Source: Streptomyces graminilatus
GTDB lineage: Bacteria > Actinomycetota > Actinomycetes > Streptomycetales > Streptomycetaceae
NCBI RefSeq assembly: GCF_001418565.1
Contig: NZ_LIQQ01000027.1
Span: forward strand, 25,543 to 89,542
Reading direction: 5' to 3'
DNA: 64,000 nt
Below, one piece after another: positions 15,861 to 34,517 of this stretch. Position 1 is the first letter of the stretch. The number at the start of each line of letters is the position of its first letter. Under the pieces are notes generated by a model. It worked only from the letters and a program-made list of their open reading frames with translations. It had not been told where the DNA came from and searched no databases. The position numbers and the translations under genes were made by a program.

Positions 15861-15915
15861 AGGGCTCCTCCCAACCTTGGGTTTTACTGAGATTCTGCCA
15901 CTTGTAGGCCAGATA

Positions 15916-15941: not shown

Positions 15942-15971
15942 CTCTTCTCTGCTGAGGCATATCGGATGGAT

Positions 15972-18051: not shown

Positions 18052-18062
18052 AGTGCGGCTCT

Positions 18063-19439: not shown

Positions 19440-19455
19440 TTCCTGCCTCCTCTTC

Positions 19456-19644
19456 TTACGCGGTCTGCGCGGCGAGCTGACTGCTGCCGAGCGCTTCCGC
19501 GAACCAGGTCCGGAACTTCCCGCCGTGCTCCTCGCACACGTCGTACTCGTCGCCGAAGATTTCGAGCTTCCCGACCGCTTCGCGCTCCTCGCCCTTCTTT
19601 TCGCACGGGTCGCACGTCACAGACTTGATAACCTTGGTCGCCAT
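19456..19644 (-). CDS. Small Cys-pair protein
   Basis: 62 residues, SD AAAGGAG. VTCDPCEKKGEE and DEYDVCEEHGGKF give a C-x2-C and C-x2-H arrangement that fits a small zinc ribbon. Its 5' leader contains an ACTTTGGC-loop hairpin (19,678-19,696). Recurrent small-gene type in Streptomyces phages; function unknown. Confidence 0.6.
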   Translation of the reverse strand: MATKVIKSVTCDPCEKKGEEREAVGKLEIFGDEYDVCEEHGGKFRTWFAEALGSSQLAAQTA

Positions 19645-19677
19645 TCCAATAGGCTCCTTTGCGAATAGATCCGAACA

Positions 19678-19696
19678 CTCGTACTTTGGCTACGAG
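19678..19696. repeat. ACTTTGGC-loop hairpin, copy 2
   Basis: CTCGTA-CTTTGGC-TACGAG: six paired bases and a seven-base loop, in the 5' leader of the gene starting at 19,644. On the leftward transcript the loop reads GCCAAAG. Confidence 0.65.
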
Positions 19697-19704
19697 CACC
19701 CATG

Positions 19705-19739
19705 ACGAAGGGCCGGGAATTCTATTCCCGGCCCTTCGT
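19705..19739. terminator. 16-bp perfect inverted repeat
   Basis: ACGAAGGGCCGGGAAT-TCT-ATTCCCGGCCCTTCGT lies between the genes ending at 19,758 and starting at 19,644 on the minus strand. There is no long T-run on either side. It may act as a terminator or an RNA-processing stem separating two blocks of the early operon. It shares GGCCGGGAAT with the hairpin at 22,332. Confidence 0.6.
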
Positions 19740-19757
19740 TAAAGATGTTCGACCAAG

Positions 19758-20048
19758 TCAGCCCGCAGTACGCGCTGCCGCTATCGCTGCTGCGGACTCC
19801 TCTCCCTCACGGCGCACTTTCTCAACCCATTCCGGGTGAAGGAACGTGTTGTCATCTGGCCATCGGGGCTCTACTTCGTCCACCCAGGCAGACCAGACCT
19901 CCGCTGTCTGCTCAGCGTCAGACGGATGGTCGATTTCCCAGAGCAGGCAACGAAGGACGTGGGCTCTGTCTCCCTCAGGCTCGAACCCTGACCATGTTTC
20001 GTACTCCTTCGCCACGAGTGCACGAATACGCTTTGCCTCGTCACTCAT
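19758..20048 (-). CDS. Small early protein, unknown
   Basis: 96 residues from ATG at 20,048. Acidic and Trp-rich (KEYETWSGFEPEGDRAH, EIDHPSDAEQTAEVWSAWVD). Overlaps the upstream gene by four bases (ATGA). No domain recognised. Confidence 0.5.
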   Translation of the reverse strand: MSDEAKRIRALVAKEYETWSGFEPEGDRAHVLRCLLWEIDHPSDAEQTAEVWSAWVDEVEPRWPDDNTFLHPEWVEKVRREGEESAAAIAAARTAG

Positions 20049-20278
20049 GACACACCTGCCAGTACTCGGCGGCCGGCCTGCCACTCCTCGACCACGTGAG
20101 CCACCAGAGCGCGGACAACCACGTCCGGGTCTGCGTAGGCGCCCGCTACGTGTCCGCAGTCTTGGAACACGCTCCGCAGGGCCACAAAGCTCTCGTTGAA
20201 GTCCGGCTTCGCAGCGGCAGCTTTGGCTCTGTCGCCCACCGAGGCGGAGTCAAGGAGGAAGTCCTTCATCGCGCTCAC
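20045..20278 (-). CDS. Small early protein, unknown
   Basis: 77 residues from the GTG at 20,278, which overlaps the upstream stop (GTGA); the ATG at 20,269 is an alternative. Helical (DFLLDSASVGDRAKAAAAKP; VVVRALVAHVVEEWQAGRRV). No domain recognised. Confidence 0.45.
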   Translation of the reverse strand: MSAMKDFLLDSASVGDRAKAAAAKPDFNESFVALRSVFQDCGHVAGAYADPDVVVRALVAHVVEEWQAGRRVLAGVS

Positions 20279-20616
20279 TCGGCCGCCCCGAACTTCGCAC
20301 GCTGCTTGTTGGACATGTCCACGGGCGCCCACCACTTGAAGTAGGCGAAGCCCGCAAGGCTCCGGACGAACCGCGCCGGGAGAGGGACGATGCTGACCAG
20401 GCCCCGGTACACGAGCATGTCCAGCTCGGAGTCATCCGGGGTGTAGCCGATCGGCCCCTTCCCGGTGGCGTAGTAGTCGTGGCCTTCGAGGACTTGCCCC
20501 TCTGCGGTGATCAGGGTCATGGCGTACTTCTCACTGCCAGGCGTCCACTCGACGACCACTCCGAGGTTGGTGAGGCCGTCGGGGACCAGGCCCACGGCCA
20601 CATGTGTGTGCTTCAC
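20275..20616 (-). CDS. Early protein, unknown
   Basis: 113 residues, ATG overlapping the preceding gene's stop. Strand-rich N-terminus (HVAVGLVPDGLTNLGVVVEW) and an aromatic C-terminal segment (FAYFKWWAPVDMSNKQRAKF). No domain recognised. Confidence 0.5.
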   Translation of the reverse strand: MKHTHVAVGLVPDGLTNLGVVVEWTPGSEKYAMTLITAEGQVLEGHDYYATGKGPIGYTPDDSELDMLVYRGLVSIVPLPARFVRSLAGFAYFKWWAPVDMSNKQRAKFGAAE

Positions 20617-20951
20617 GCATGTCCTTTCGCTTCGTTGTATGCCTCGATCACGCGCCGCGGAATGCGGCCCCGCGTGCCCACGAAATAGCCGTTCTCACGG
20701 CCCCATTCGCGCATGTCCTTCATGAGCCAGATCTGATGCTCAGCCCGTTTACGATCTTCGGCGGCTTCTGCCCACATCCGCGTTTCCTTCTCGCGCTGCT
20801 CCGCCTCACGCTTCAAGCGCGCCAGATGGCGGGGGTAGTACTCGCGGAAGTAGCGGATCTCTGGATCGGTGGGCGACCCTCCGTCGTCGGCGCTCCGGAG
20901 CCTCTCGTGGACCATGAATTCCCGGACAAGGTCCGGGTCCGGCTCGGTCAC
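20613..20951 (-). CDS. Protein with Lsr2-type DNA-binding tail
   Basis: 112 residues from the GTG at 20,951, which overlaps the upstream stop. A long charged helical region (ARLKREAEQREKETRMWAEA) is followed by MREWGRENGYFVGTRGRIPR and VIEAYNEAKG. This reproduces the C-terminal Lsr2 DNA-binding motif (RxWAxxNGxxVxxRGRIPxxVxxAYxxA), including an RGR core that inserts in AT-rich minor grooves. It lacks the Lsr2 N-terminal dimerisation strands, so it may bind DNA differently or antagonise host Lsr2. Confidence 0.65.
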   Translation of the reverse strand: MTEPDPDLVREFMVHERLRSADDGGSPTDPEIRYFREYYPRHLARLKREAEQREKETRMWAEAAEDRKRAEHQIWLMKDMREWGRENGYFVGTRGRIPRRVIEAYNEAKGHA

Positions 20952-21130
20952 CTGACGATCAGAGGACGAGTGGTCACGTTTTCGTCCTCCTCCCACCGTT
21001 CGGCGTGCTCGTCACAGTGCGGCCAGGAGACGAACCGCTTGTCTCCGTATCGCTCGATGTCGACCCATCGAGTCGCGGGCCGGCCGCAGTTGGTCATGCA
21101 ATTTCCGCTGTAGTCCTTGGGGTACGGCAC
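20948..21130 (-). CDS. Small Cys/His protein
   Basis: 60 residues. YSGNCMTNCGRPATRWVDIE then WPHCDEHAERW gives Cys-x3-Cys and Cys-x2-His spacing, suggestive of a small zinc site. Overlaps the downstream GTG start by four bases. Confidence 0.5.
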   Translation of the reverse strand: MPYPKDYSGNCMTNCGRPATRWVDIERYGDKRFVSWPHCDEHAERWEEDENVTTRPLIVR

Positions 21131-21133
21131 AGG

Positions 21134-21382
21134 TCACCAGCCTCGATCAATTCCGTGGTCTTGCCGAAGGTGATTGCCCTCCCAAAGGGTGGCCTGCCTG
21201 TTCATCCACGGGTGTTCCTTCTCCATGAGTGAGGAGGAAAGCGCCTTGAACACCTCACCGTGCTCGGAGCACGAGACCACGACGTTGCCGTACGCCACCC
21301 AGTGGAGTCGGCCCCCATCGGAGGTCCAGCGCCTCGGCTTGGGGAACTCCACGAAAGTGAGCGTCATTTCCGGATGTTCCAT
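21134..21382 (-). CDS. Small early protein, unknown
   Basis: 82 residues, ATG overlapping the previous stop (TGATG). The segment LHWVAYGNVVVSCSEHGEVF looks like a strand pair. No domain recognised. Confidence 0.45.
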   Translation of the reverse strand: MEHPEMTLTFVEFPKPRRWTSDGGRLHWVAYGNVVVSCSEHGEVFKALSSSLMEKEHPWMNRQATLWEGNHLRQDHGIDRGW

Positions 21383-21723
21383 CAGGCACGCACCTCCAAC
21401 ACGGCGTTGCTCGGGGAGATACAGCGGCCCATCCGGTAATCGCTGACCGTGATAAATCCGCCCTCCATACGGTCCATGCGGATGTGCGGGCCGTCCTCCT
21501 CAGACCACTCGGACGCGTCCTCCAGACGCTCAGCCGTCGTCGTCTCCGCCCACACCGTAAATTCGGCCCCGTACAACTCACTCCACTGGTTCATGATGTT
21601 GAACAGGTGCTCGAACTTCTCCACGAGAGCAACCGCCCTCGCGTCCTTAGGGGCGGGCATCTCCGCATATCTCGGATTGTTGGAGTCGGTACGCTCGCCA
21701 AGGGCCATAATCCAGCGCGCCAT
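21382..21723 (-). CDS. Early protein, unknown
   Basis: 113 residues from ATG at 21,723 with AAAGGAAAG upstream. Starts MARWIMALGERTDSNNPRYA, contains a helical stretch (AVALVEKFEHLFNIMNQWSE) and a C-terminal strand pair (GGFITVSDYRMGRC). No domain recognised. Confidence 0.5.
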   Translation of the reverse strand: MARWIMALGERTDSNNPRYAEMPAPKDARAVALVEKFEHLFNIMNQWSELYGAEFTVWAETTTAERLEDASEWSEEDGPHIRMDRMEGGFITVSDYRMGRCISPSNAVLEVRA

Positions 21724-21734
21724 TTTCTTTCCTT

Positions 21735-22019
21735 TCAGTTCTGGGCGAAGGGCACGTGGCCCTGAAGAACAGCGACGGCGTGCAGGTAAGAAGCCGATTC
21801 CCCGAACCGCTTGACCGCTTCCGACTCGGCCTCGTCCGAGGCGTTCGAGCCGCTGGTGGCCCACACGTGGAAGAGCTGGGGCTCATCCGTCATGTGAAAT
21901 TGCTCCCACCCTTCAATGAATATTTCCGGGTCCCAGTCGCGGACGACAGTGAACGGCTTCAGGTTTCCCCGCTGACTGATTCGTCCCATGACCGCCGGAA
22001 TCACGCTTCTCCAGCTCAA
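21735..22019 (-). CDS. Early protein, unknown
   Basis: 94 residues if started at the TTG that overlaps the upstream stop; an ATG at 21,989 is the alternative. FTVVRDWDPEIFIEGWEQF, then an Ala/Glu-rich helix. No domain recognised. Confidence 0.45.
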   Translation of the reverse strand: MSWRSVIPAVMGRISQRGNLKPFTVVRDWDPEIFIEGWEQFHMTDEPQLFHVWATSGSNASDEAESEAVKRFGESASYLHAVAVLQGHVPFAQN

Positions 22020-22297
22020 TTTGCACTCTCCATTTCCAGAAACTTGCGCGCCTCTTCGGCGAAGGCGGTCCAGGTGTCTTGGGCATCGAACGCGAAGTTG
22101 GTGTCCCTCTCGTCGTAGACACCCATTTCCTCGTCAATACAGGGCTGGTCCCCGTCGACGGGGGCATACGAGGGGATCTCTCGAAAGGACTCCTCTCGGT
22201 CCTTCTCCCACTGGCCGTGTGCCTTGACGAGCTTTTCCAGCAACTCCCGTTGCACAGCACTCTGGAACTTCATTCGCTTGGTGTACTTGCGAGACAT
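22016..22297 (-). CDS. Early protein, unknown
   Basis: 93 residues from ATG at 22,297 with GAGAGG upstream. Basic helical N-terminus (SRKYTKRMKFQSAVQRELLE), acidic C-terminus. A palindromic hairpin lies in its leader. No domain recognised. Confidence 0.5.
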   Translation of the reverse strand: MSRKYTKRMKFQSAVQRELLEKLVKAHGQWEKDREESFREIPSYAPVDGDQPCIDEEMGVYDERDTNFAFDAQDTWTAFAEEARKFLEMESAN

Positions 22298-22331
22298 CTG
22301 CTCTCCTCTCAATCGGTTACCCGTGGCGAAC

Positions 22332-22349
22332 GGCCGGGAATTCCCGGCC
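22332..22349. repeat. 18-bp palindrome GGCCGGGAATTCCCGGCC
   Basis: Self-complementary sequence between the genes at 22,370 and 22,297, flanked by GGCG/CGCC that can extend the stem. It shares GGCCGGGAAT with the inverted repeat at 19,705-19,739, which also lies at a break between gene blocks. Confidence 0.5.
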
Positions 22350-22369
22350 GCCACCAAACAGGAACCGCG

Positions 22370-22738
22370 TCAGACGGAAGCGGCGGCGTTGTCCTGGTCG
22401 TCCTCGGGTTCGCTGTCGTCGCCGGCGACCTGGTAGCGCTCCCAGAATTCAGCCGCATCGTGACGGCCGGCCGCGTGCATCAATCCCGTGAGCGGTGCCA
22501 ACTCCAGCTCGGACAGATGCGGTGCAACACCGTGCGCCAGGTTGGGGTCATCGAACTTGTCCACCAGCTCCATGGCGGCGATCAGCAGAACCTCACGCTT
22601 CGGGTCCCTGGCTCCCATCTGGAGACGAAGTTTCTCCAGGTCCTCGTGGAGCTGGACGTTCGACTGCACGAGCATGGTCAGAGCGGTGTCCCGCATGTCG
22701 CGGTGGATAAGCCAGTGGGTGATGAACGGGATACGCAT
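22370..22738 (-). CDS. Early protein, unknown
   Basis: 122 residues, entirely helical by inspection (TALTMLVQSNVQLHEDLEKL; EVLLIAAMELVDKFDD) with an acidic C-terminal tail. First gene after a terminator-like stem, so it may start a separate transcription unit. No domain recognised. Confidence 0.5.
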   Translation of the reverse strand: MRIPFITHWLIHRDMRDTALTMLVQSNVQLHEDLEKLRLQMGARDPKREVLLIAAMELVDKFDDPNLAHGVAPHLSELELAPLTGLMHAAGRHDAAEFWERYQVAGDDSEPEDDQDNAAASV

Positions 22739-22753
22739 GCTGAGTCCTTTCGG

Positions 22754-22783
22754 GCATGAAAAAAGACCAGGGGGATTCCTGGC
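22754..22783 (-). terminator. Leftward intrinsic terminator
   Basis: On the minus strand CCAGG-AATCCC-CCTGG is followed by TCTTTTTT, between the stop at 22,810 and the start at 22,738. It divides the early genes into two blocks. Confidence 0.75.
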
Positions 22784-22809
22784 CTCGGTTGGGGGTTGGG
22801 GAGGTGCGG

Positions 22810-23283
22810 CTACTCCGGCGAGGGCTCACGCTCTTTGAGCGCCTCAAACACCGCGAGGGCGGTCATGCCGATGAGTCCCGCCTCATGGCTCTTGTCGGTC
22901 ATCCATCCGCCACCGGCCATGAACTCGGAGAATGCGCGATTGCTGTTCCAACTGCCGTGCTTCCGCTGGACGTCGAACGCGACCCCGGCGGCTCGGTCCA
23001 TGACGTTGCTCGCGAACTCGATACGGTCCAGGCCGCTCCACGTCGCCGTGCCAGCGTGGTCCGTCACGTACTGCTGGGCCGCCTTACGCGCAGCCTCCAC
23101 GTCGAAGAGGACGTAGGCCCCGCAGACGGAGCAACTCACGTCCTTCAACTCCGACGAGTAGATGGGCTCAGCCATGATGACCGGGAGTCCGCCGTTACAC
23201 GGCGTTCGGTCTCCCGAGAACGAGACGTGCGATTCGCCCGGTGTCTTCCGGCTCCAGCTCACCTGAAAATCGACCTTGCTCAC
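22810..23283 (-). CDS. Early protein with one CxxC pair
   Basis: 157 residues from the GTG at 23,283 that overlaps the upstream stop. SKVDFQVSWSRKTPGESHVS at the start, LKDVSCSVCGAYVLFDVEAA in the middle, then a Gly-rich hydrophobic stretch and an acidic end. No family recognised. Confidence 0.5.
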   Translation of the reverse strand: MSKVDFQVSWSRKTPGESHVSFSGDRTPCNGGLPVIMAEPIYSSELKDVSCSVCGAYVLFDVEAARKAAQQYVTDHAGTATWSGLDRIEFASNVMDRAAGVAFDVQRKHGSWNSNRAFSEFMAGGGWMTDKSHEAGLIGMTALAVFEALKEREPSPE

Positions 23284-23468
23284 TTGCTCTCCTCCAGGAC
23301 TTCCAGGATCGAGGTGTCCTCGATCTCCCACTGACGGGGGTTACATGTCTTGCAGTAGCGGACGTGGGTGTTGCACATGCGGACCGTTCCGGCCGAGGTC
23401 GTGAACAGCGTCAGGAGCTGGGGACAGTTGGCCGCCTTGAGCGCCATTCCGTTGTGCCAGGCGTTCAT
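23280..23468 (-). CDS. Small Cys-rich early protein
   Basis: 62 residues from ATG at 23,468, overlapping the upstream stop (TGATG). CNTHVRYCKTCNPRQ plus an upstream Cys (AANCPQL) could bind zinc. No family recognised. Confidence 0.5.
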   Translation of the reverse strand: MNAWHNGMALKAANCPQLLTLFTTSAGTVRMCNTHVRYCKTCNPRQWEIEDTSILEVLEESK

Positions 23469-23701
23469 CACCACCCCCTCTCGCTCTTGAACTCGTCCAG
23501 GTCCTGGCCGTAGTTCTCGGTGACGACGTCTTCCAAGTCGGCCTGCATGTCGGATGTGAGGACGGTTATGGTCGCGTTCACCAAGAGCGACAGCAGGTCT
23601 TCCATCTCCTGGTCGCACTCGATGTCCTGGATGACCAGGTCCATGGCCGCATTCGCGGCCTCGCTCACCCGATCCTCGGTGTAGGTCTTCTCGTTGCTCA
23701 C
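23468..23701 (-). CDS. Small acidic early protein
   Basis: 77 residues from GTG at 23,701, chosen because it overlaps the upstream stop (GTGA); an ATG 12 bases earlier is possible. Strongly acidic and helical (MDLVIQDIECDQEMEDLLSL). Confidence 0.45.
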   Translation of the reverse strand: MSNEKTYTEDRVSEAANAAMDLVIQDIECDQEMEDLLSLLVNATITVLTSDMQADLEDVVTENYGQDLDEFKSERGW

Positions 23702-23871
23702 GAGTTCGCCCATGCCTTTGCGTCGTCCGAGTTGATCCAGCCCTTCCGTCCGGCCTGGTCCTTGATCTCGATAAGGTCGTGAGCGGTGTACCGCACTACG
23801 GTCACCCGCTCCCGCCCGAGAGCGCTGCTGTCGTAGACCGCCTGGCCTCGCTTGAACTTCTTCTCGATCAT
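23698..23871 (-). CDS. Small SH3-like early protein
   Basis: 57 residues from ATG at 23,871, coupled by ATGA. FKRGQAVYDSSALGRERVTV, then TAHDLIEIKDQAGRKGWIN, has the strand spacing of a small SH3/KOW-like barrel. Function unknown. Confidence 0.45.
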   Translation of the reverse strand: MIEKKFKRGQAVYDSSALGRERVTVVRYTAHDLIEIKDQAGRKGWINSDDAKAWANS

Positions 23872-24242
23872 TTCTCCCCTTCCTTGATGCGGGTGGTGCT
23901 CACGCTGTAATCCGGCTGGCGACGCTCCACGTCGATGGGTGCGGGGCCGTCGAGGAAACCGCGCAGCAGATCGGCGGTGTTGCCGTGGTAGCCGATTCCC
24001 TCGTACGAGTAGGCGGCATTGCCCATGTAGATGTTGGCTTCGGGGTAGTACGGGCCGCACTCAGCCGCCCAAGTACCGTTCGCCCGGATCACCACACGGT
24101 CGTACTCGTGCGAGATTTCCAGGCCCTTGCGGTACTGCTCTTCCGCACGTCCGGGAACCCTGCCGTCGAACTCCGTAGCGAAGTCCTCAGGTTTCAGAAA
24201 AGCCTCAGGCGGAAGAGCAGTGAGTTCGGAGTAGGGGCGCAT
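23868..24242 (-). CDS. Early protein, unknown
   Basis: 124 residues. Middle segment YYPEANIYMGNAAYSYEGIG is Tyr-rich. SD GGAGGA before ATG. No domain recognised. Confidence 0.5.
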   Translation of the reverse strand: MRPYSELTALPPEAFLKPEDFATEFDGRVPGRAEEQYRKGLEISHEYDRVVIRANGTWAAECGPYYPEANIYMGNAAYSYEGIGYHGNTADLLRGFLDGPAPIDVERRQPDYSVSTTRIKEGEK

Positions 24243-24251
24243 AAATCCTCC

Positions 24252-24599
24252 TCAGAGGGGACGAACGTCGACTACGCCGAACTTCTTGGCGGCATAGGCT
24301 TCCATCACGGTGAACATGAATCGCAACTCCGTGTCCCCGAGGTCGATTACGTCGATCTCCTCCCACGTGGACGGTGTACCACCCTGCGAGTTGTCCCAGT
24401 TGTTGAACCAGTAGGTTCCCTCGTCGATCATCCGAGAGACGCGGATGATCGAACGCTCATGCTCTCGCCACTGGAGTTGGTACTGCTCGCCACCTTCCTG
24501 GCTCTCCCAGACGTGAAGCGAGTTGTAGCCGTAATTCCCGCCGCGGATGGCGAGCGGGTAGGCGTAGGGCTTGCTTTCCGGCTTGTTCTTACGAGGCAT
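24252..24599 (-). CDS. Early protein, unknown
   Basis: 115 residues from ATG at 24,599, with GAAAGGGG upstream. PRKNKPESKPYAYPLAIRGG at the start, EQYQLQWREHERSIIRVSRM in the middle. The ATG abuts the stop of the upstream gene. Confidence 0.5.
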   Translation of the reverse strand: MPRKNKPESKPYAYPLAIRGGNYGYNSLHVWESQEGGEQYQLQWREHERSIIRVSRMIDEGTYWFNNWDNSQGGTPSTWEEIDVIDLGDTELRFMFTVMEAYAAKKFGVVDVRPL

Positions 24600-24835
24600 C
24601 ACGTTGCCCCTTTCACTGGGTAGGTGTTCTGGATGATCAGCTCCCATGCCTCATTCAGCTCGGACGTGGTGTCGTACTTGCGCAGCCAGACGTTCCCCTG
24701 AGAGTCCTCGGTGAGGATCACGGCTTCGAGCTGGTAGAGCCCGAACCAGGCCGGCCCCTCAACGCTGTCGCCTACCTCCTGCTCGGGCTGGAGGTAATAA
24801 AGTTCTTCGGCCTCGGGCGTTTCGAACTTGGACAT
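24599..24835 (-). CDS. Early protein, unknown
   Basis: 78 residues from ATG at 24,835 (TGATG overlap). LYQLEAVILTEDSQGNVWLR suggests a beta hairpin; acidic overall. Confidence 0.5.
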   Translation of the reverse strand: MSKFETPEAEELYYLQPEQEVGDSVEGPAWFGLYQLEAVILTEDSQGNVWLRKYDTTSELNEAWELIIQNTYPVKGAT

Positions 24836-24999
24836 CAGCGCCCCTTCGCGGCGGGCTGGCAGGTACGGGTGAAGGTCGCGAGCTGGGCATCGGTGATCAG
24901 CCCCGTTTCTCGCCACTCGGCGAGGAAATCGGTTTGCCCCTTGATCACAGGGACAGCGGAATTTCCTCGGTTTCCCTTTTCGAGTTCGGCCTTACGCAT
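24835..24999 (-). CDS. Short early protein, 54 residues
   Basis: Starts at ATG 24,999 inside the end of the previous gene (8-base overlap) and ends at TGA 24,835-24,837, which overlaps the next ATG. It fills the gap exactly, and both junctions show translational coupling. The product begins MRKAELEKGNRGNSAVPVIK and includes DFLAEWRETGLITDAQLATF, a helical segment resembling short-linker sequences. Function unknown. Confidence 0.55.
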   Translation of the reverse strand: MRKAELEKGNRGNSAVPVIKGQTDFLAEWRETGLITDAQLATFTRTCQPAAKGR

Positions 25000-25297
25000 G
25001 AAACCGCCTTTCTCTCAGAGGCCAGCCGCGCTCTATCAACTCCGCGGGGAATCCAAGGTGTCCGGCCCGCTTGCGGTTGACTAGCCGAATGGCTTCCCAG
25101 TCCGTTGGCACCTTCGTCACGAGGCGCAAGATCTCGTCCTTGAAGACGGCCATCTCTGCGCACTCACCGTGATTCGGTCCGTCGAAGCTGCACACAATGC
25201 GCCAATTCGGATTGACGATGAACTGGCAGCCACACGGCCAGGAATTCCACCCGAGCCGCAGTTCTTTGGGCTCCATCTCAAGCCGTCCATTCCGCAC
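24992..25297 (-). CDS. Early protein with GWNSWPCGC motif
   Basis: 101 residues from GTG at 25,297; ATG at 25,276 is an alternative. LGWNSWPCGCQFIVNPNWRI and FDGPNHGECAEM give three Cys and one His that could form a metal site. Overlaps both neighbours. Confidence 0.5.
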   Translation of the reverse strand: MRNGRLEMEPKELRLGWNSWPCGCQFIVNPNWRIVCSFDGPNHGECAEMAVFKDEILRLVTKVPTDWEAIRLVNRKRAGHLGFPAELIERGWPLRERRFHA

Positions 25298-25577
25298 GGC
25301 AGGTCACGCACTCAAAGCCGCCAGCGACCAGACGCTTTGCGCAGGACAGGCACGGGCCGACATAGGCAAGCGCCTTGCGCTCGTACTCGGCCTTGCTGAT
25401 GGCGTCTATGTGCGCCGCCCAAATCGGCTTCGTGGCCTGGCACTCCCAGCACATGTATCCGCCGCAGGTCTTGCGCGTCTCGCGCTTGCAGAGCCAACAG
25501 GGCTCGTCACGTCTCTGCATCAGGTAGGCCGCCAACTCGTCTTCTTCGCGAGTCGACGGCAGGAAGAAAACAGGCAT
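25278..25577 (-). CDS. Zinc-ribbon early protein
   Basis: 99 residues. Four CxxC pairs: CWLCKRETRKTCGGYMCWEC, and later PCLSCAKRL with ECVTCRAEW. Two zinc-binding ribbons are likely, so nucleic-acid or protein contacts are plausible. Its 5' leader contains an ACTTTGGC-loop hairpin, and the 13-bp early repeat lies just beyond that. Confidence 0.65.
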   Translation of the reverse strand: MPVFFLPSTREEDELAAYLMQRRDEPCWLCKRETRKTCGGYMCWECQATKPIWAAHIDAISKAEYERKALAYVGPCLSCAKRLVAGGFECVTCRAEWTA

Positions 25578-25598
25578 GGATGTCCTCTCAACTCGACA

Positions 25599-25630
25599 GG
25601 CTCGCAGGTACTTTGGCCTACCTACGAGCC
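25599..25630. repeat. ACTTTGGC-loop hairpin, copy 3
   Basis: GGCTCGCAGGTA and TACCTACGAGCC pair over 12 positions with one C-A mismatch, closing the loop CTTTGGCC. Located in the 5' leader of the gene starting at 25,577. Confidence 0.7.
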
Positions 25631-25632
25631 GA

Positions 25633-25650
25633 TCACCGACTCAACTTTTA
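25633..25650 (-). promoter_or_regulatory. GTTGAGTCGGTGA early repeat, copy 1
   Basis: Minus strand TAAAAGTTGAGTCGGTGA. The first three bases are the stop of the gene at 25,648-25,884. An identical 17-mer occurs at 26,546 and 27,478, always in the same orientation relative to leftward transcription. Confidence 0.65.
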
Positions 25651-25884
25651 CGGCATGAAGAAGCGTGCCGGGTCTGCCGGACCGAACAGGCCCGACCCGT
25701 CGAGCTGCCATTCGAACCATGACATCTGGTCACGCTCGAACAGGACGTCGCTGATCATTCGAGCAGCGATCTTGTGCCACTCCACATCACCCTGCGACAT
25801 GGCCGTGTAGTCCTCGCAGAGCTGAAGAGTGGTCCTCTTGCGCAAGTGCTCAACAAGGAGTTGCGCGTTCACGTGCTGTGCCAT
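25648..25884 (-). CDS. Early protein, unknown
   Basis: 78 residues, helical (VNAQLLVEHLRKRTTLQLCE; HKIAARMISDVLFERDQMSW) with the C-terminal PADPARFFMP. Starts at ATG 25,884 with AAAGG upstream. No domain recognised. Confidence 0.5.
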   Translation of the reverse strand: MAQHVNAQLLVEHLRKRTTLQLCEDYTAMSQGDVEWHKIAARMISDVLFERDQMSWFEWQLDGSGLFGPADPARFFMP

Positions 25885-25934
25885 ATCGACCTTTCACACA
25901 CACCGGTATCGCTCGGACGCTTACCGGATTCCAC

Positions 25935-25952
25935 CGCGCCCCGAAGGGCGCG
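25935..25952 (-). terminator. Hairpin between early genes
   Basis: CGCGCCC-CGAA-GGGCGCG, a seven-base-pair stem between the stop at 25,970 and the start at 25,884. No T-run; weak terminator or processing site. Confidence 0.4.
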
Positions 25953-25969
25953 ATAGGACCCGCCAAGTG

Positions 25970-26194
25970 TCAGACCGGGTTGAGGACACACGTGGCAGGG
26001 TTCTCGATCTGCTGCTGATACGTGCTGAGATAGACGGCCGGCGGGGAGGGTGCGACCCGCGAACGGACCTCGAAGCCTCTCGCCATCCAGTCCTGTGCGA
26101 GCGTCCCGGCCTCGTCGCCGCGGACAGTGTCAACCTCGCGCCAGACCGAAAACTCTTCGTCGAGCACGGACACGCGAATCCAGATGTTGAGCAT
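25970..26194 (-). CDS. Early protein, unknown
   Basis: 74 residues from ATG at 26,194 with GGAGGACTCCCC upstream. Starts MLNIWIRVSVLDEEFSVWRE, strand-rich; contains TLAQDWMARGFEVRSRV. No domain recognised. Confidence 0.5.
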   Translation of the reverse strand: MLNIWIRVSVLDEEFSVWREVDTVRGDEAGTLAQDWMARGFEVRSRVAPSPPAVYLSTYQQQIENPATCVLNPV

Positions 26195-26220
26195 GGGGAG
26201 TCCTCCGTAGCGGTAGCGAG

Positions 26221-26520
26221 TCAGCGGGTCTCGACGAGCCAGGAACATGCGGGCGTGAACCCCTGGTCGCAGTCGTCTTGCTTGCTGTCCCTGAAGCCGT
26301 CGTTGAAGGTGTCCACGTAGGCCACATTTCCGGCCTGGTCGACGACGAAGGACATCCCGCGCCCGTTGCCCTGCTTGCCCGCGTCCCAGTAACAGTTCAC
26401 CGACTCCTCGGACTTGCACGGCTGGAGCTGGGGAGCTGTGGCGTCCCCGTAGATCGCACCGCCCGTGAACGCGGCAGCGGCCAGCACCAGAGCCGACAGG
26501 GTCATTCCACGCTTGCGCAT
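26221..26520 (-). CDS. Exported or membrane-anchored small protein
   Basis: 99 residues from ATG at 26,520. A signal-anchor sequence (MRKRGMTLSALVLAAAAFTG, then GAIYGDATA) precedes a soluble domain with four Cys (QPCKSEESVNCYWDAG; DDCDQGFTPACSW), which could form two disulphides outside the cell. An early phage protein at the cell surface is a candidate for superinfection exclusion, but no homologue is recognised. Confidence 0.6.
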   Translation of the reverse strand: MRKRGMTLSALVLAAAAFTGGAIYGDATAPQLQPCKSEESVNCYWDAGKQGNGRGMSFVVDQAGNVAYVDTFNDGFRDSKQDDCDQGFTPACSWLVETR

Positions 26521-26545
26521 GTTGGGTCTCACTTTCCAAAACTCC

Positions 26546-26563
26546 TCACCGACTCAACTTTTA
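26546..26563 (-). promoter_or_regulatory. GTTGAGTCGGTGA early repeat, copy 2
   Basis: Minus strand TAAAAGTTGAGTCGGTGA between the small basic gene (stop at 26,572) and the exported protein gene (start 26,520). Identical to copy 1 over 18 bases. Confidence 0.65.
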
Positions 26564-26571
26564 GGACAGGG

Positions 26572-26733
26572 CTATGCACAGGGCTTGACCACGATGCGGG
26601 CCCGCAGCCCGCGAGTGATCGGACGCGCAGCCATCGTGCCGCGCTTCTTGGACTTGCGCTTATTGGGCAGTCGCTCACCCGGTCGACCCCACACGTCCGC
26701 CCCGTGAGCGCGCGTGGTATTGATCGAAGCCAT
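26572..26733 (-). CDS. Small, very basic protein, 53 residues
   Basis: ATG at 26,733 follows a strong SD (GGAGGGG, five to six bases upstream). The product is Arg/Lys-rich (MASINTTRAHGADVWGRPGE, then LPNKRKSKKRGTMAARPITR) and ends KPCA. It is the first gene downstream of the structured region and control island on the leftward strand, so it would be expressed early. Charge suggests nucleic-acid binding. Confidence 0.6.
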   Translation of the reverse strand: MASINTTRAHGADVWGRPGERLPNKRKSKKRGTMAARPITRGLRARIVVKPCA

Positions 26734-26758
26734 CGAATCCCCTCCGGACATGAACCAA

Positions 26759-26784
26759 GCGCACTGAGCGAATTCTCAGTGCGC
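26759..26784. repeat. 10-bp perfect inverted repeat
   Basis: GCGCACTGAG-CGAATT-CTCAGTGCGC, 26 bases upstream of the small basic gene on its leader side. It could be an operator or a hairpin that controls translation or termination of the early transcript. Confidence 0.55.
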
Positions 26785-26841
26785 ATGGAGCCACTTCCGA
26801 CTTGGGGCCGCCCGTCCAGCTTTCCGAGCGGCATCACGTAC

Positions 26842-27304
26842 GGCGCATCATCGTTGTGCGCCTGATTGGGTTACCCGTCCCTGCTCGCGCTCCCGCTACG
26901 TACCTCCGACGTAGCCTCACTGCGCATTGGTCATTGCGTCACGCCCCACAAGGGCGGCTCAAAGGTTCCTTAGGTAACCCGCTGGTTTTCCGGCCACGGG
27001 CAGAGTTGCTAGTCCTGCCCGTGCCTTCGTGTGGTGTGTGTCTTCCCCTACGCTTTCCGCTTAGCGTGCCACTTTGGCCAGCACGCTTCCGGCCGCCCTA
27101 GATGCGCCGTCATTGCACACACCTAAAAACGGGTTCTCGCCCTCAGGATCGTTCGCCGAAGCGCACTTCTCCCCACACGGTCGTCTCGATTACGGGCGGT
27201 TGCTAGTCGCCCGACGCGAGATCCCTCTATTCAGTTCACAAGTAGCCAGGGGTCCCTTTGCGCGGCCTATCGGCCAGCACCCTCCACACGTTCCTGTGTG
27301 GAGG
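26842..27304 (-). ncRNA. Candidate structured RNA / long early leader
   Basis: No credible gene is seen in this GC-rich 460 bp, yet it is dense with perfect stems. GGCGCA/TGCGCC is at 26,842-26,862. GGGTTACC (26,868) pairs with GGTAACCC (26,973) around CTACGT/ACGTAG. CACGGGCAG/CTGCCCGTG is at 26,995-27,023 with loop AGTTGCTAGTC. The ACTTTGGC hairpin is at 27,063. CGGGCG/CGCCCG is at 27,193-27,213 with loop GTTGCTAGT. CCTCCACAC/GTGTGGAGG is at 27,281-27,304. On the minus strand the unpaired parts are purine-rich (GGAAAACC, GGGGAAGACACAC), as in structured RNAs, and this is the direction of early transcription. Type and function unknown. Confidence 0.5.
27063..27087. repeat. ACTTTGGC-loop hairpin, copy 4
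   Basis: AGCGTGC-CACTTTGGCCA-GCACGCT, a seven-base-pair perfect stem inside the structured region. The loop shares ACTTTGGC with copies 1 to 3. Confidence 0.65.
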
Positions 27305-27477
27305 AGCCGCGCACCCTCACCCGCCGGTGTGGGTGCGGCCCGCATGTAAGCGGGGTCGCTCCGGTCCCCTGCCCGAACACTTGGGATGCGAGCCCATGTG
27401 ATCGAGCGGGTGTCGCGCCCTGCGCCCCGTGTGTCCGGGCCGCGTTCGGCGACAGGCAGAACACTCCACGAATTCCG

Positions 27478-27494
27478 TCACCGACTCAACTTTT
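27478..27494 (-). promoter_or_regulatory. GTTGAGTCGGTGA early repeat, copy 3
   Basis: Minus strand AAAAGTTGAGTCGGTGA, at the boundary between the AT-rich island and the structured region. Copy 3 of three identical 17-mers. Confidence 0.65.
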
Positions 27495-27519
27495 GCCGCA
27501 CAGAGAGGGTGGGTGGACA

Positions 27520-28140
27520 CAATTAATTAATTCAGACATCAAGGCATGGATCGCCCAGGATCAATTCGGGCAATGCAGGCTAGATAGGGGCGAATGTCTG
27601 TGATGGGCGTCACATATAGGGGTGCTCACAAATACCCGCAACATGGACACGTCTAGACCAATTCTAGATAGTGGTCTAGCCCAATATGGAGTGGTGGTTT
27701 AGACCAGTGCGTTATGAGCCTGTTACTGAAAACGGCTGTTTGTAATCATCTTGCGCACCCAAGCGTTATTAATTCGTGTCCGAATGCAGAGCGACCGCGC
27801 GCATTGGATTCCCCACAATGCGGGTCAATTCAGACACTTACCCAATCTAACAATTCGCTATTCGCATTAGCAGGTCTAAACCATTTACTATTTGCGATTC
27901 ACGAATGCGTGGGTGCGAATTAGTTTGCTATTCACTGATGCATGCTTTGCATTACACGCTGAATATCTGAGTGCCAGTCAGGGATGCCCCCGCATGACTG
28001 TATTCATGAATTAATTCCCCCTCGAATTCATTCATTCACTCGGCCGTTTAGGCTGAATGGGGGGTAATCCATATATACATTCAGAAAGGACCCACCGGGG
28101 GTGCTGTCCTTCCAGCGTGTACGGGTATTAATTTTTCGAA
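27520..28140. other. AT-rich control island without genes
   Basis: About 620 bp whose base composition is far more AT-rich than the surroundings (runs such as AATTAATTAATTCAG and ATTCATTCATTCACTC). No open frame looks coding. It holds four TGGTYTAGACCA-like sites (27,651-27,660; 27,672-27,683; 27,695-27,706; 27,872-27,883) and repeated CTATTCGC / CTATTTGCGATTC segments. It is the likely early promoter-operator region and possibly a replication origin. A phage lsr2, whose product binds AT-rich DNA, starts about 700 bp to the right. Confidence 0.6.
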
Positions 28141-28415
28141 GCTCTGTGCGTCCCGTAGACGGCCGCGTAGCGAACCCTACCACACCAGGCCCCAACTGAC
28201 CCCTCCCAAGCCCGTACAGCAGCTCTCAGAGGCTGGGAGGTCGGTCAACCGGCTCTGTTGCCCCCTCACTCGCCCGTCTTGAATGAATGAATTAGGTCAA
28301 CAGGCGTGAGCTGAGCCTCAGTTGAGGGCTCGGGTGTCCAGACATGGCCAGATTGACACCGACATCTTTTTTGGTGGGGGTTATATGCCCTCTATGGTGC
28401 CTAACCGAGTTGCCT
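28141..28415. other. Gene-free spacer
   Basis: No gene seen. It contains TGAATGAATGAATT (near 28,280) complementary to the ATTCATTCATTCA near 28,027, and short poly-purine runs. It probably contributes to the early promoter region. Confidence 0.4.
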
Positions 28416-28416
28416 A

Positions 28417-28439
28417 GCCCCCTCCACCGGAGAGGGGGC
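28417..28439 (-). terminator. Hairpin after lsr2
   Basis: GCCCCCTC-CACCGGA-GAGGGGGC, about 40 bases downstream of the lsr2 stop on the minus strand. No long T-run. Confidence 0.5.
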
Positions 28440-28474
28440 CCGCAATTCATTCACGAATAGCTCGTATCAGGGCC

Positions 28475-28831
28475 TCAGCCATTGGCCTTTTCGTAGGCTT
28501 CCTTCACTGAAGCCGGAACTCGACCCCGGTCATTCACGTCGTGGCCATTTTCTTTGGCCCAGGCCCGAATCTTGGCCGTGTCCGAGGCGCCGGCCGTTCC
28601 CCCAGCTCGGCGCTTTGCCTTCGCGCCAGCAGCCGAGATGCCTCCTCGCACCCGCCGAGCGCCCTCAGCGCTCAAGTAGGGCTTCAGAAGCTCCAGCAGG
28701 GCGTCATGACTCTCCGTGGAGAGGTCAATTTCGACCCCAGCCCCGTCGATGAGGATGGTGTGAGTACCGATCTCCTCAGACTCTTCGCCTGTGAGATCGT
28801 CCGAGTAAGTGATAACAGTCTTCTGGGCCAT
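28475..28831 (-). CDS. lsr2: Phage-encoded Lsr2 nucleoid protein
   Basis: 118 residues from ATG at 28,831, close to the 105-115 of host Lsr2. The N-terminal half has the dimerisation strands (AQKTVITYSDDLTGEESEE, GVEIDLSTESHDALLELLKP). The C-terminal half is the DNA-binding domain IRAWAKENGHDVNDRGRVPA followed by SVKEAYEKANG, with the RGR AT-hook-like core. Lsr2 silences AT-rich foreign DNA. A phage copy next to its own AT-rich control island could tune prophage silencing or displace host Lsr2. Confidence 0.9.
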   Translation of the reverse strand: MAQKTVITYSDDLTGEESEEIGTHTILIDGAGVEIDLSTESHDALLELLKPYLSAEGARRVRGGISAAGAKAKRRAGGTAGASDTAKIRAWAKENGHDVNDRGRVPASVKEAYEKANG

Positions 28832-28872
28832 GCCCAGATTGTAGGGCCAACCGGGACCCTCTTTAGCACCCA

Positions 28873-28902
28873 AAGAGGCCCTGGCTTGACGGCCAGGGCC
28901 TC
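28873..28902 (-). terminator. Hairpin after the XRE gene
   Basis: AGAGGCCCTGGC/GCCAGGGCCTCT, a 12-bp perfect stem between the regulator stop (28,921) and the lsr2 start. Confidence 0.65.
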
Positions 28903-28920: not shown

Positions 28921-30105
28921 CTAATCAGCCAGGCCAGCCCTCTTGGCCATCTTCATCAGCTGGGGACGCGCCCTCTGGTGTAGCACGAAGAGCACTCGGA
29001 TTACCTCTCTGGACATGGGATGGACCTCGGCCATCTGAGGTGCGATCAGGAAGGCTTTCTCAAGCGCCTCTTCCGCGCCGGCATAGTCCTTCGTGTCGAG
29101 CCGGGCCCGAGCGATGTCGATGAACATGCGGCCCAGTCGGCTCGGCGTCAGTGTCGAGGGCGGAGTGGCTAGGAGAGGCTCCCCCATCTCGGCAGCGCGG
29201 TCCGGGTTCCCCATCTCGATGTGTGCTGCCAGCTCGTACAGAGCCGTGTTCTCCTGTCCAAAGGTCAAGTTGTGCCTGAGAACATCGTTCGGGATTCCGA
29301 GGGCGTACTTTTTGGCCCTCGCAAGGTGGTCCGCGGTGGCCTGCTTGTCCTTGTGTCGAGAGGCGAGGACGATCCCTCGAAGGTGCAGGGAGCCAAGGGA
29401 GAGCGCTCGGGCAGGCGTATCGCTCGAAGACGCGCTCTCGTACTTGCTGATGGCCCTCTCCACGATGGCAAGACCATCGTCGTACTGTCCGGCTGACTGG
29501 TAGGTGCCGGCCTCATTCCAGGCCGCTGCGACTTCGGCCTCCGGGTTCCAGGTCTGCTGGGCCGCCCATGCCTGCCGAGACACGATCATGTCGGCAAGGT
29601 CCGGTTGCGCAAGCCGATGAGCCGCTGCGTAGGCGCAGCCGTAGACATCAGCCACCTGAGTCCAGGCGCCAGCCTCTCCAGACGCGGCGGTGAGGGCAGT
29701 CGAAGTGACTTGGTCCAGGAGCTTCGGGAGCATCCCGAGCAGTTCCAGGTACTTGGCCCCCGCCCGCAGGTTCATGGCCTTCTCCACGTCGGCCGCCAAC
29801 TGCGCCGGGTCGGGTACGTCTTCCTTCGGCAGCGTGTACCGCCGCACCGAGCCACGGAGGTCGTTGAGAAGGTCAGCTTGTTCGGATGGCCCCAGGAACG
29901 GCTGACCGTAGATGCGCTGGGTGGGGACCTTCATGGCCTTTGCCAAGGCCGCAACCAGCGGCGGCGTAACTGGCCGCGTGCCTACCTCGATCTTGCTGAG
30001 GTAGGACACAGAGATACCAGCCATGCGGGCGAGCTTGCTCTGCCCGAGTCCTCGTGCCTTGCGCAGTACGGCGATGTTCGAGCCGGGTGCGGGGGTGCTC
30101 TCCAT
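28921..30105 (-). CDS. XRE-family regulator with TPR-like domain
   Basis: 394 residues. Helix-turn-helix at residues 8-60 (NIAVLRKARGLGQSKLARMA, then GISVSYLSKIEVGTRPVTPP). The rest is helical and repeat-like (AAWNEAGTYQSAGQYDDGLA; LYELAAHIEMGNPDRAAEMG; EEALEKAFLIAPQMAEVHPM), consistent with TPRs that sense a ligand or peptide. Divergent from the gene at 30,242, so it probably controls that shared promoter. It may be the prophage state regulator, although classical immunity repressors are shorter. The same divergent theme (XRE plus a 122-130 residue partner) recurs at 37,274-38,606. Confidence 0.75.
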   Translation of the reverse strand: MESTPAPGSNIAVLRKARGLGQSKLARMAGISVSYLSKIEVGTRPVTPPLVAALAKAMKVPTQRIYGQPFLGPSEQADLLNDLRGSVRRYTLPKEDVPDPAQLAADVEKAMNLRAGAKYLELLGMLPKLLDQVTSTALTAASGEAGAWTQVADVYGCAYAAAHRLAQPDLADMIVSRQAWAAQQTWNPEAEVAAAWNEAGTYQSAGQYDDGLAIVERAISKYESASSSDTPARALSLGSLHLRGIVLASRHKDKQATADHLARAKKYALGIPNDVLRHNLTFGQENTALYELAAHIEMGNPDRAAEMGEPLLATPPSTLTPSRLGRMFIDIARARLDTKDYAGAEEALEKAFLIAPQMAEVHPMSREVIRVLFVLHQRARPQLMKMAKRAGLAD

Positions 30106-32266: not shown

Positions 32267-32722
32267 ATGGCCCAGACCCTCACTGGAACCGGACGAGTGA
32301 CGATCTTCCCGTTCTTACATGACTGGAGCACCGGTTCCCGGTGCGTTCTCGCATACTCAACAACGGACGGGGGCCTAACTGCTGTCATGGGGGTCATCCC
32401 CATCGAAGGCAACGTGTTCGAACCGGGGGACCTCTTCGCCCTGGCCGGAAGGCACGGCTTCGTCGGCGAGTGGAAGGGCGACCACAAGCAGCGGTGCGGC
32501 TGCTGGCTCGCCTGCACCGGCTACAGCTCGCGGACCGTGAGAAAGCCAGGCACCATCGATGTGCCTAACGCCCCGTGGGCAGTCGATATGGCGTCAACGG
32601 TCGTGATGGACAGCTCGTACTACGGCCACAAGTCGGTGTTCGCCGGCCGCTTCAGCTCCGTCGACCAAGATCTGATGACACAGGCCCGTGCACTCGTCCC
32701 GGTACCTGTACCTGCTGCATGA
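32267..32722 (+). CDS. Unknown protein
   Basis: 151 residues, AGGAGAGAAG before ATG. TGRVTIFPFLHDWSTGSRCV, GDLFALAGRHGFVGEWKGDH, then RCGCWLACTG. No recognised domain. It forms a one-gene unit closed by a terminator shared with the convergent DUF2637-like gene. Confidence 0.5.
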   Translation: MAQTLTGTGRVTIFPFLHDWSTGSRCVLAYSTTDGGLTAVMGVIPIEGNVFEPGDLFALAGRHGFVGEWKGDHKQRCGCWLACTGYSSRTVRKPGTIDVPNAPWAVDMASTVVMDSSYYGHKSVFAGRFSSVDQDLMTQARALVPVPVPAA

Positions 32723-32770
32723 ATGAATTACCCTCGGCCTGGCCGAGGGGACCATCCGAGTCCCGGAGGT

Positions 32771-32809
32771 CAGAGAACCCCCCCACTGACCCTGTGGGGG
32801 GGTTCTCTG
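32771..32809. terminator. Bidirectional terminator between convergent genes
   Basis: CAGAGAACCCCCCCAC-TGACCCT-GTGGGGGGGTTCTCTG, a 16-bp perfect stem midway between stops at 32,722 (+) and 32,822 (-). Confidence 0.85.
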
Positions 32810-32821
32810 CTTTCCGGCCTG

Positions 32822-33619
32822 TTATGCGCTCAGAGGCAGCATGCCGGCCGTCAACTGAGGTTCGGCAGGCCTATGGCGGTAGTAGGTGGCTTGAGAGATG
32901 CCAACGCTCTTGCAGACGTTCTCAACAGTCGCCTTCTCTCCCTTCGCAGCGAGAGCCTTTCGGGCCTGGTCGATCCGCTGAGTGAGAGCCAGCGTCCGAG
33001 GCTGGGCCTCCTCCTCCCTGAGAGAGTCGTCCAGGACCCCAGTGACTTTCGCGGCTGCCGCAGACAACTCCTCTGCGGTGTCGGCAGCTCTCACCACCTC
33101 GACAAGGACCGCACCAGCACGAGAGACCAGAGCCGCGCTCTCTGAGGCAACGAGAGCCGTCGTGAGGCTCTTGATCGTCTCTCGGGCCTCAGTCAGTTCC
33201 TCAGAGGCAGAACGGACCTCGGATGGAGTCTCAGCCATGTGAATGAGGTGGGCGATCACGAGAGGCGGAATGCAGGAGACAGCCACCACCAGGGCCGCGG
33301 AAGTCCCCATGTAGCTCTGCTCGATCAGGTGAGAGATCGACTGGGCAGACATCGCGAGAACGAGAGCCAGCACACCGCCAATGAGAGCTGTCCTCTCGCC
33401 GGACAGCCGCATCTTGCGGCGGTACCACGAGATGGCACCAGCCGCGAGGGCGTACACCGAGAGGCAGACCGGCATGGCGGGGGCATACCTCTCACTCCAC
33501 CCAGCGGTGCGAGCTAGGGCCACTTCTCCGGGGATGGAGAGGTATAGCGCTGCGAGTACAGCGGCGGGGATGGCGACGTACAGGACTGCCTTGATGTACC
33601 AGGGCACAGCTCTAGACAT
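32822..33619 (-). CDS. DUF2637-like membrane protein with C-terminal HTH
   Basis: 265 residues. Four hydrophobic segments in the first 135 residues (AVLYVAIPAAVLAALYLSI; MPVCLSVYALAAGAISWY; TALIGGVLALVLAMSAQSI; AALVVAVSCIPPLVIAHLIH). A helical Glu/Ala/Ser-rich linker follows, then a short HTH near the end (ATVENVCKSVGISQATYYRH). Membrane spread-type proteins with this layout are typical of Streptomyces conjugative plasmids and integrative elements. In a prophage this is unusual. The HTH could bind element DNA at the membrane. Confidence 0.65.
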   Translation of the reverse strand: MSRAVPWYIKAVLYVAIPAAVLAALYLSIPGEVALARTAGWSERYAPAMPVCLSVYALAAGAISWYRRKMRLSGERTALIGGVLALVLAMSAQSISHLIEQSYMGTSAALVVAVSCIPPLVIAHLIHMAETPSEVRSASEELTEARETIKSLTTALVASESAALVSRAGAVLVEVVRAADTAEELSAAAAKVTGVLDDSLREEEAQPRTLALTQRIDQARKALAAKGEKATVENVCKSVGISQATYYRHRPAEPQLTAGMLPLSA

Positions 33620-33650: not shown

Positions 33651-34517
33651 TTAGACGCCGAGGAACGAGGCGGCGCGGCCCATCTCGTCCTTGCAGTTGC
33701 GGCAGACGCCGCCGTGGTGGCCGAGAGGGAAGATCACCGCACAGACCTCGCAGGCAACCCGCTCAACGGGCTTGGAGGTCTGCTGATGACGGACAGACCT
33801 CTCCGGGGTGAAGTGCTTCAGCCGGTGAGAGATCAGACCTGCAACCGAGTCGATCGGACCAGGGAGGGCAGCGGTGAGGCACTTAAGGATCTCGTCGCTT
33901 CGGTAGTCCTCGCGCAGCCACGGCACGACCTTGGGGGCCAGGCGGGCAATCTCCTGGTCCGTGAGAGGCAGGCTCTTGTGCAGGCTCAGCCGCTCAAGGA
34001 TGCGGCGCCCTTCACGGGCCATCTCGCGATCGATCTTGTGCAGGAAGGCGGCTTCTCCCTCCCCGCCCTTCTCGGGGCTTTGGGGTGTGAGCGGAGCCAG
34101 GTCCTGAGCATCGCTCGGGGGTGGGGTGATGTCTTTCTTGCTCTTCGTCTTTCTCCCTATGGGAGAGGCGCCGACGGCCCGACCACTCGCCACACCGGCC
34201 GCCGGGAACCGGTCAGTCGGAGCTTCAGGGGTATCCGTGACAGTCGTGATGGTGACCCACCGGCCAGTCTCCGGGTCCTGCACCTTGGCGCGCTTGACGT
34301 AGCCAGCCTCGATCAGCTCGTTCATGGCTTTCGAGACAGAACGCCGGCCGTTGGAGACCTGCGCGGCGATCCTGTCGACCGTCGCCCCGGCGCCATCAGG
34401 CAAGGAGAGCAAACGCGTCAGCAGGCCCACGGCCTCAAGAGAGAGGATGCCGTGACGTGCGATTGTGTTGGGTATCTGGACATAGCCAGATGAGCGATTG
34501 GTACGCTTGACCTGCAT
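33651..34517 (-). CDS. Winged-helix protein of actinobacterial mobile elements
   Basis: 288 residues from ATG at 34,517. The N-terminal winged helix (VQIPNTIARHGILSLEAVGL, LPDGAGATVDRIAAQVSNGR, SVSKAMNELIEAGYVKRAKV) resembles replication-initiator or MarR-like helix-turn-helix domains. A disordered Pro/Ser linker, a helical domain (ILERLSLHKSLPLTDQEIAR) and a C-terminal zinc ribbon (CEVCAVIFPLGHHGGVCRNC) follow. This architecture is common on Streptomyces plasmids next to DUF2637/Spd-like proteins, as here. Likely a regulator or replication protein of the element. Confidence 0.6.
   Translation of the reverse strand: MQVKRTNRSSGYVQIPNTIARHGILSLEAVGLLTRLLSLPDGAGATVDRIAAQVSNGRRSVSKAMNELIEAGYVKRAKVQDPETGRWVTITTVTDTPEAPTDRFPAAGVASGRAVGASPIGRKTKSKKDITPPPSDAQDLAPLTPQSPEKGGEGEAAFLHKIDREMAREGRRILERLSLHKSLPLTDQEIARLAPKVVPWLREDYRSDEILKCLTAALPGPIDSVAGLISHRLKHFTPERSVRHQQTSKPVERVACEVCAVIFPLGHHGGVCRNCKDEMGRAASFLGV

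Follow-up and report, generated by a model that had tools for sequence, protein, structure and literature searches.

A structured region ahead of the early genes

What occupies the gap between the regulatory genes and the early genes of this prophage? The window (the whole stretch of DNA analysed, 64,000 nt) holds a Streptomyces prophage with genes for a tape measure protein (2568-8120), a Gp37-like protein (9139-10371) and an endolysin (14325-15161). The tail genes and the endolysin gene run rightward; the early reading frames are small, point leftward and occupy 26751 to 15972. We found no convincing minus-strand gene in the gap at 28474-26752, to the right of which lie an Lsr2-like gene (28475-28873) and then a gene for an XRE-TPR regulator (28921-30105). 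A sequence-only reading had proposed a large structured RNA at 26842-27304, the lower part of this gap adjoining the first early gene. The 11-kb early operon downstream begins with two short genes:

26572-26751, minus strand: first early gene after the leader, 59 aa; conserved in the related prophage L085
26221-26532, minus strand: second early gene, 103 aa; relatives occur in Streptomyces phages, close to the early end

The stems, loops and long-range pairing named in that reading are all present in the sequence. GGGTTACC (26868-26875) pairs with GGTAACCC (26973-26980) around a nested CTACGT/ACGTAG hairpin, the stems CACGGGCAG/CTGCCCGTG and CCTCCACAC/GTGTGGAGG are also found, and two hairpins have the common loop GTTGCTAGT (27005 and 27199), with no other in the window even at one mismatch. 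ACTTTGGC occurs exactly four times in the window, always as a hairpin loop and once inside the region; on the early strand these are four GCCAAAG-loop hairpins (15607, 19683, 25610 and 27071, plus-strand coordinates). The region is structured as proposed, but the unit is larger, extending from about 27456 to 26776, so that about 150 nt at its 5' end had been missed. A motif of the rRNA-leader type at 27259-27227 was likewise absent from the earlier description. The leader and its parts, in 5' to 3' order of the minus strand, are as follows:

26776-27456 (both ends estimated), minus strand: predicted early leader RNA, ~680 nt; compensatory changes in L085, 5' and 3' blocks in L093
27451-27462, minus strand: 5' block GTTCTGCCTGTC, probable start region; its TGTTCTGYCTGTC is also present in L085, in L093 and in seven Brataylor-type loci
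27411-27454, minus strand: 5' terminal hairpin TGTCGC...GCGACA; invariant in L085
27282-27303, minus strand: hairpin CTCCACAC/GTGTGGAG, in which L085 has several exchanged pairs
27264-27275, minus strand: GGCC-GATA-GGCC hairpin, directly 5' of the rRNA-type motif
27227-27259, minus strand: rRNA-leader-type motif AAAGG-N17-GAACTGAATAG, with a boxC-like block at 27237-27227; pattern and model matches
27185-27220, minus strand: two-part hairpin, loop with CTAGCAA (the first GTTGCTAGT loop of the earlier reading); compensatory changes in L085
27028-27179, minus strand: long-range helix of 27179-27173 with 27034-27028; invariant in L085, so that variation neither supports nor contradicts it
27063-27087, minus strand: GCCAAAG-loop hairpin (ACTTTGGC on the plus strand); in L085, two of its pairs are exchanged and the loop reads UCCUAAG
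26995-27023, minus strand: hairpin with the second TAGCAAC loop
26868-26980, minus strand: long-range helix GGGTTACC/GGTAACCC; invariant in L085
26883-26927, minus strand: 3' block ATGCGCAGTGAGGC-stem-GCGGGAGCGCGAGC; another perfect stem in its place in L093
26843-26861, minus strand: hairpin GCGCA/TGCGC; G-C to A-U exchange in L085

Folding energy exceeded chance on both strands, but only moderately (minus strand z -2.53, 2 of 100 shuffles as good; plus strand z -3.32, 0 of 100), and the excess was not uniform across the region. A scan with 150-nt windows gave minus-strand z values of -2.68, 0.12, 0.75, 0.03 and -4.62 at five positions, the middle of the region being ordinary. These z-scores are a weak guide, and the comparison with L085 is far stronger support. 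The strongest local outliers between 15 and 36 kb lie elsewhere, at 32701-32850 (z -7.1 minus, -6.1 plus) and at 19651-19800 (z -4.4 minus, -6.2 plus).

Compensatory changes favour the strand of the early genes

The leader was compared with those of one close relative (L085) and one distant relative (L093). The alignment between the L085 prophage and the window spans the entire leader (74% over 1632 columns); over 26776-27470 the two are 85% identical, with blocks of at least 50 nt that are invariant. RNAalifold folded the pair into 190 base pairs, 18 of them changed on both sides. For a stricter test, we took structures predicted from the window only and permuted the L085 residues 2000 times, exchanging them only between sites that have an identical base in the window. 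The minus-strand minimum free energy (MFE) structure (226 pairs) had nine two-sided changes against a null mean of 1.78 and 17 broken pairs against 37.8; for the centroid structure (161 pairs) the values were ten against 1.21 and 11 against 26.8. None of the 2000 permutations reached these values for either structure. On the plus strand, broken pairs were not reduced (34 vs 37.1, P 0.22; 31 vs 33.1, P 0.34). Two-sided changes were raised there as well (six and seven, P 0.008 and 0.001), as one would predict for hairpins able to form on either strand. An upstream intergenic control (75% identical, sound) had no two-sided excess on either strand, with broken pairs slightly low (P 0.04-0.11); an upstream coding control was weak because the aligned stretch was only 44% identical.

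Both comparable GCCAAAG hairpins, that in the leader and that before the gene starting at 25577, carry UCCUAAG in L085. L093 retains the blocks on either side of the hairpin at 26915-26895 and has another perfect stem, of 7 bp, between them. We saw no coding selection or synonymous bias in the six frames examined over the region. Because pairs are compensated in L085, antisense pairs are broken at chance level and coding selection is not seen, the structured unit is very likely a non-coding leftward early leader RNA of ~680-700 nt, as predicted from sequence comparison. The retained and compensated pairs support the earlier proposal that this is a leader or non-coding RNA made in the direction of early transcription. 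No Rfam family matched at the gathering threshold and nothing relevant appeared in the window at curated or permissive thresholds, in keeping with the suggestion of a possibly undescribed RNA type. The comparison with GOLLD, which had been drawn from the occurrence of such RNAs near tRNA or control regions, was not supported: there was no Rfam match, and the sole Rfam tRNA in the window (36271) lies ~9 kb away.

The leader contains a close match to the host rRNA-leader motif

The motif RAWGG-N17-GAACTSAAYAG lies at 27259-27227 on the minus strand and makes up ~33 of the leader's ~680 nt. The window form is AAAGG-N17-GAACTGAATAG; the host rRNA leader has AAAGG-N17-GAACTCAACAG ~167 nt upstream of the 16S gene (locus L126), and the window differs from it by TTGT and GAACTG in place of TTGA and GAACTC. 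The block GAACUCAAUAG is reportedly the NusA-binding boxC of the Mycobacterium tuberculosis rrn leader.

The composite motif has six exact matches in the 9.6-Mb host genome, and the reversed pattern has none. Three of the six are the same rRNA-leader sequence, two of them on contigs that end before the 16S gene could be checked. The remaining three are the window site, a site ~200 nt before a gntR-DTE RNA (host contig C407; L131, 1484-1791) and a site on contig C779 (L136, ~1500-1532) with no Rfam match in the surrounding 3 kb. The second of these suggests that the gntR-DTE family, too, may lie in antitermination leaders; we found nothing on gntR-DTE in the open-access papers searched.

We also built a motif model from 28 other examples, with the window, L085, L094 and L095 not included. 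L155 was omitted from the alignment as doubtful, and L094 was kept for independent testing. L149, L156 and L159 have a single sequence in common. The model was run over the window, 24 relatives that share an upstream anchor element (described below) and three phage loci (314 kb). It matched the window (E 5.2e-5), L085 (7.5e-5), L094 (6.6e-8), L095 (2.2e-9) and L086 and L087 (0.0072 each), that is, five of the 24 relatives but four distinct leaders, since L086 and L087 have the same match. The matched sites lie 689-919 nt after the anchor. At E values up to 5, there was no match in the other 19 relatives, including L093 and also L090, which ends 546 nt after the anchor and so falls short of the place where a site would lie, or in the three phage loci (Celia, CandC and Triscuit). 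Over the whole host genome, the window site was much weaker than those of the rRNA leaders: it scored 21.2 bits (E 0.0016), the five stronger sites scored 49-56, and the next, at chance level, 16.7.

The motif recurs in other actinophages

A blastn search with 26780-27520 gave no match in phage or plasmid records and, in 392 Streptomyces genomes, only matches of 26-47 bases in 11 genomes beyond the window itself. Relatives of the XRE-TPR regulator were present in 53 of the 392 genomes; none of the 20 places examined had an Lsr2 gene or the leader next to the regulator. One locus with a relative of the regulator (L023) shares a short element upstream of the leader, which served as a search anchor:

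28088-28128, minus strand: element common to relatives, ATACCCGTACA...GCACCCCCGGTGGGTCC...TTACCCCC, with constant spacing

The anchor core occurs in 19 viral stretches, 17 of which have further similarity, one being the window's own prophage (L089). The two without it (L080, L098) were left out, and L081 and L096 were kept despite a missing ATACCCGTACA half. The longer pattern (28128-28088) was found at nine places in six of the 392 Streptomyces genomes, including the window, and the reversed pattern at none. The element is possibly a cos site, an origin or a control site; tested as cos, it had no terminase beside it among the annotated proteins tested there. ARAGORN called no tRNA at a T-arm-like hairpin that is visible by eye at the end of the equivalent leader in L023 (6100-6160).

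L093 shares the 5' and 3' blocks of the leader. Exact leader patterns were found in the viral collection in L085 and the window's own contig only, with the 3' block also in L093, and a scan for the 3' block in a genome collection of 84,980 species returned no matches. A stricter form of the motif was found in 34 viral stretches, including L085 and the window's own prophage, and also in the isolated phages RedBear and Brataylor. Neither of two 16S signatures was found at the other 32 loci in the DNA examined. At 12 of these 32, the first open reading frame with a ribosome-binding-like site starts 121-279 nt after the motif and encodes 123-128 aa; eight of the 12 begin like the first early gene, an annotated acetyltransferase, of the Streptomyces phages RedBear and Brataylor, where the motif lies 122-123 nt before that gene.

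TGTTCTGYCTGTC is unique in the host genome and occurs in seven Brataylor-type loci (in Brataylor but not RedBear), always after TTGACA; the putative start of our leader is placed from this block. Another copy, at a single place in one genome (L033/L062), is apparently unrelated. The leaders of L086 and L095 have a similar 5' block and the motif, and this subtype covaries in its own right (14 two-sided changes vs 4.05 expected, 36 broken pairs vs 56, both reached by 0 of 2000 permutations; antisense broken pairs P 0.31). The leader therefore looks modular: its start and its rRNA-type motif are shared, and its structured domains vary. Comparison of L097 with L088 and with L122 gave no transcript-strand covariation (for L097/L088, antisense MFE broken pairs had P 0.02), so we do not claim these leaders as the same RNA.

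A possible antitermination leader and its alternatives

We consider it fairly likely that the region encodes a leader RNA of the prophage early operon that acts as an rrn/nut-type antitermination leader through a host rRNA signal. Sequence analysis shows the structure, the strand on which it forms, and the motif with its spacing and its recurrence in related and isolated phages; from these we infer transcription and its start point, NusA binding and antitermination. RNA polymerase would start leftward near 27456. The motif at 27259-27227 would be exposed on the nascent RNA and bound by NusA and probably by other host Nus factors, and the modified polymerase would then be resistant to termination both in the untranslated leader and in the early genes beyond it. 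NusA is reported to enhance readthrough at rrn nut sites (PMC12781872). Such a model would account for making a long untranslated RNA ahead of an 11-kb operon; it accounts for neither the size of the RNA nor its recurring GCCAAAG loops. A promoter scan gave no minus-strand match before the leader. Terminator-like sites in 15200-28480 were not in excess (10 vs 9.4), and there is therefore no direct sign of terminators to overcome. More tentatively, and with slightly more doubt than belief, we suggest that actinophages may have captured the host rRNA antitermination signal into fast-evolving, ornate early leaders, giving rRNA-like transcription without a phage antiterminator protein.

The features that antitermination leaves unexplained bear on the main competing idea, that the product is a stable trans-acting non-coding RNA, ornate or a decoy for Nus factors, and that the motif merely helps to make a long RNA. 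A nut site would require far less RNA than this leader provides, blocks of 50 nt or more are invariant in L085, and four hairpins carry the GCCAAAG loop, which changes in a coordinated way in L085. That the leader sits immediately 5' of the first early gene, shares its strand and is separated from it by no clear terminator argues against a free-standing product, and we regard this idea as unlikely. A leader under attenuation or under ligand or protein control, with a coincidental motif match and no relation to Nus factors, would fit L093, which has both end blocks and no motif match. Coincidence sits poorly with six matches in 9.6 Mb against none for the control and with the independent recurrence of the motif in relatives at a similar distance, and we judge such a leader quite improbable.

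Two further explanations seem to us very improbable. An RNA-based prophage replication origin, as in the extrachromosomal prophages of cluster A mycobacteriophages, could be suggested by the long AT-rich stretch (28474-27500) that adjoins the leader and by a replication-initiation-like protein encoded at 33651-34544. Here, however, the RNA points into the early genes, whereas the cluster A RNA is reported to be expressed in the prophage state and to lie beside and opposite parA (PMC7157519). Nor do we expect that the region is not an RNA at all and consists of DNA palindromes or a plus-strand protein-coding stretch. Its inverted repeats do fold on both strands, the antisense fold shares the two-sided excess reported above, and one plus-strand frame (26802-27101) has a 79-residue match in L085. 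Yet only the minus-strand fold has fewer broken pairs than expected, and 20 of the 25 changes in that frame are non-synonymous (five synonymous), with five of the 25 at codon position 3.

Comparison with known RNAs

In the antitermination reading, the closest comparison is with actinobacterial rrn nut sites, which share AAAGG-N17-GAACTSAAYAG at the spacing of the host rRNA leader, on the strand of the following genes and before a long untranslated RNA. The window differs in its GAACTG and TTGT, in the unrelated ~680-nt RNA around the motif and in being followed by phage genes, not 16S. In lambda and HK022, the nut sites and the put RNAs, respectively, are signals in leader RNA through which RNA polymerase becomes resistant to termination. 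By analogy, our leader would carry such a signal, but it is much larger and the signal resembles that of host rRNA. GOLLD and ROOL are often phage-borne and, like OLE, are large structured RNAs; the leader matches neither these nor any other Rfam family above the gathering threshold. A host copy of the gntR-DTE RNA (RF02989) lies ~200 nt after such a motif, but the window has no gntR-DTE match in Rfam. The cluster A origins are also non-coding RNA regions of actinophages (~400-500 bp; PMC7157519), and differ from the leader in position and orientation.

Antitermination by Nus factors is known; what is new is a variant with an RNA for which we found no description. Among the open-access papers listed in our searches, we found no description of such phage leaders or of what drives the long early operons of Streptomyces phages. 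A structured leader with a host rRNA-type signal offers a concrete mechanism proposal and a new RNA with measurable covariation, and the marker AAGG-N13-TTGN-GAACTSAAYAG picks out similar leaders in many actinophages. If the mechanism is correct, lambda-type use of host Nus factors would extend to a phylum for which we found no report, and if the signal was indeed captured from the host, the leaders would represent an undescribed RNA class and an undescribed form of early-gene control in Streptomyces phages.

Neighbouring elements

A repeated sequence lies just before the leader:

27478-27494, minus strand: 17-base repeat AAAAGTTGAGTCGGTGA, possibly an operator or part of a promoter

Further copies lie before early genes at 26562-26546 and 25649-25633 (minus strand), and two more are on the same prophage contig (L101 and L105). 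In other prophages, the second half of AAAAGTTGAGTCGGTGA takes a form particular to each and is repeated within that phage. Farther to the right, the 3' end of the tRNA-Gly gene (36299-36344) is repeated at ~43635-43680 (46 bp, 98%), ~7.3 kb apart. From their arrangement, these repeats look like the att sites of a separate small element with a ParA-like gene (41379-42995).
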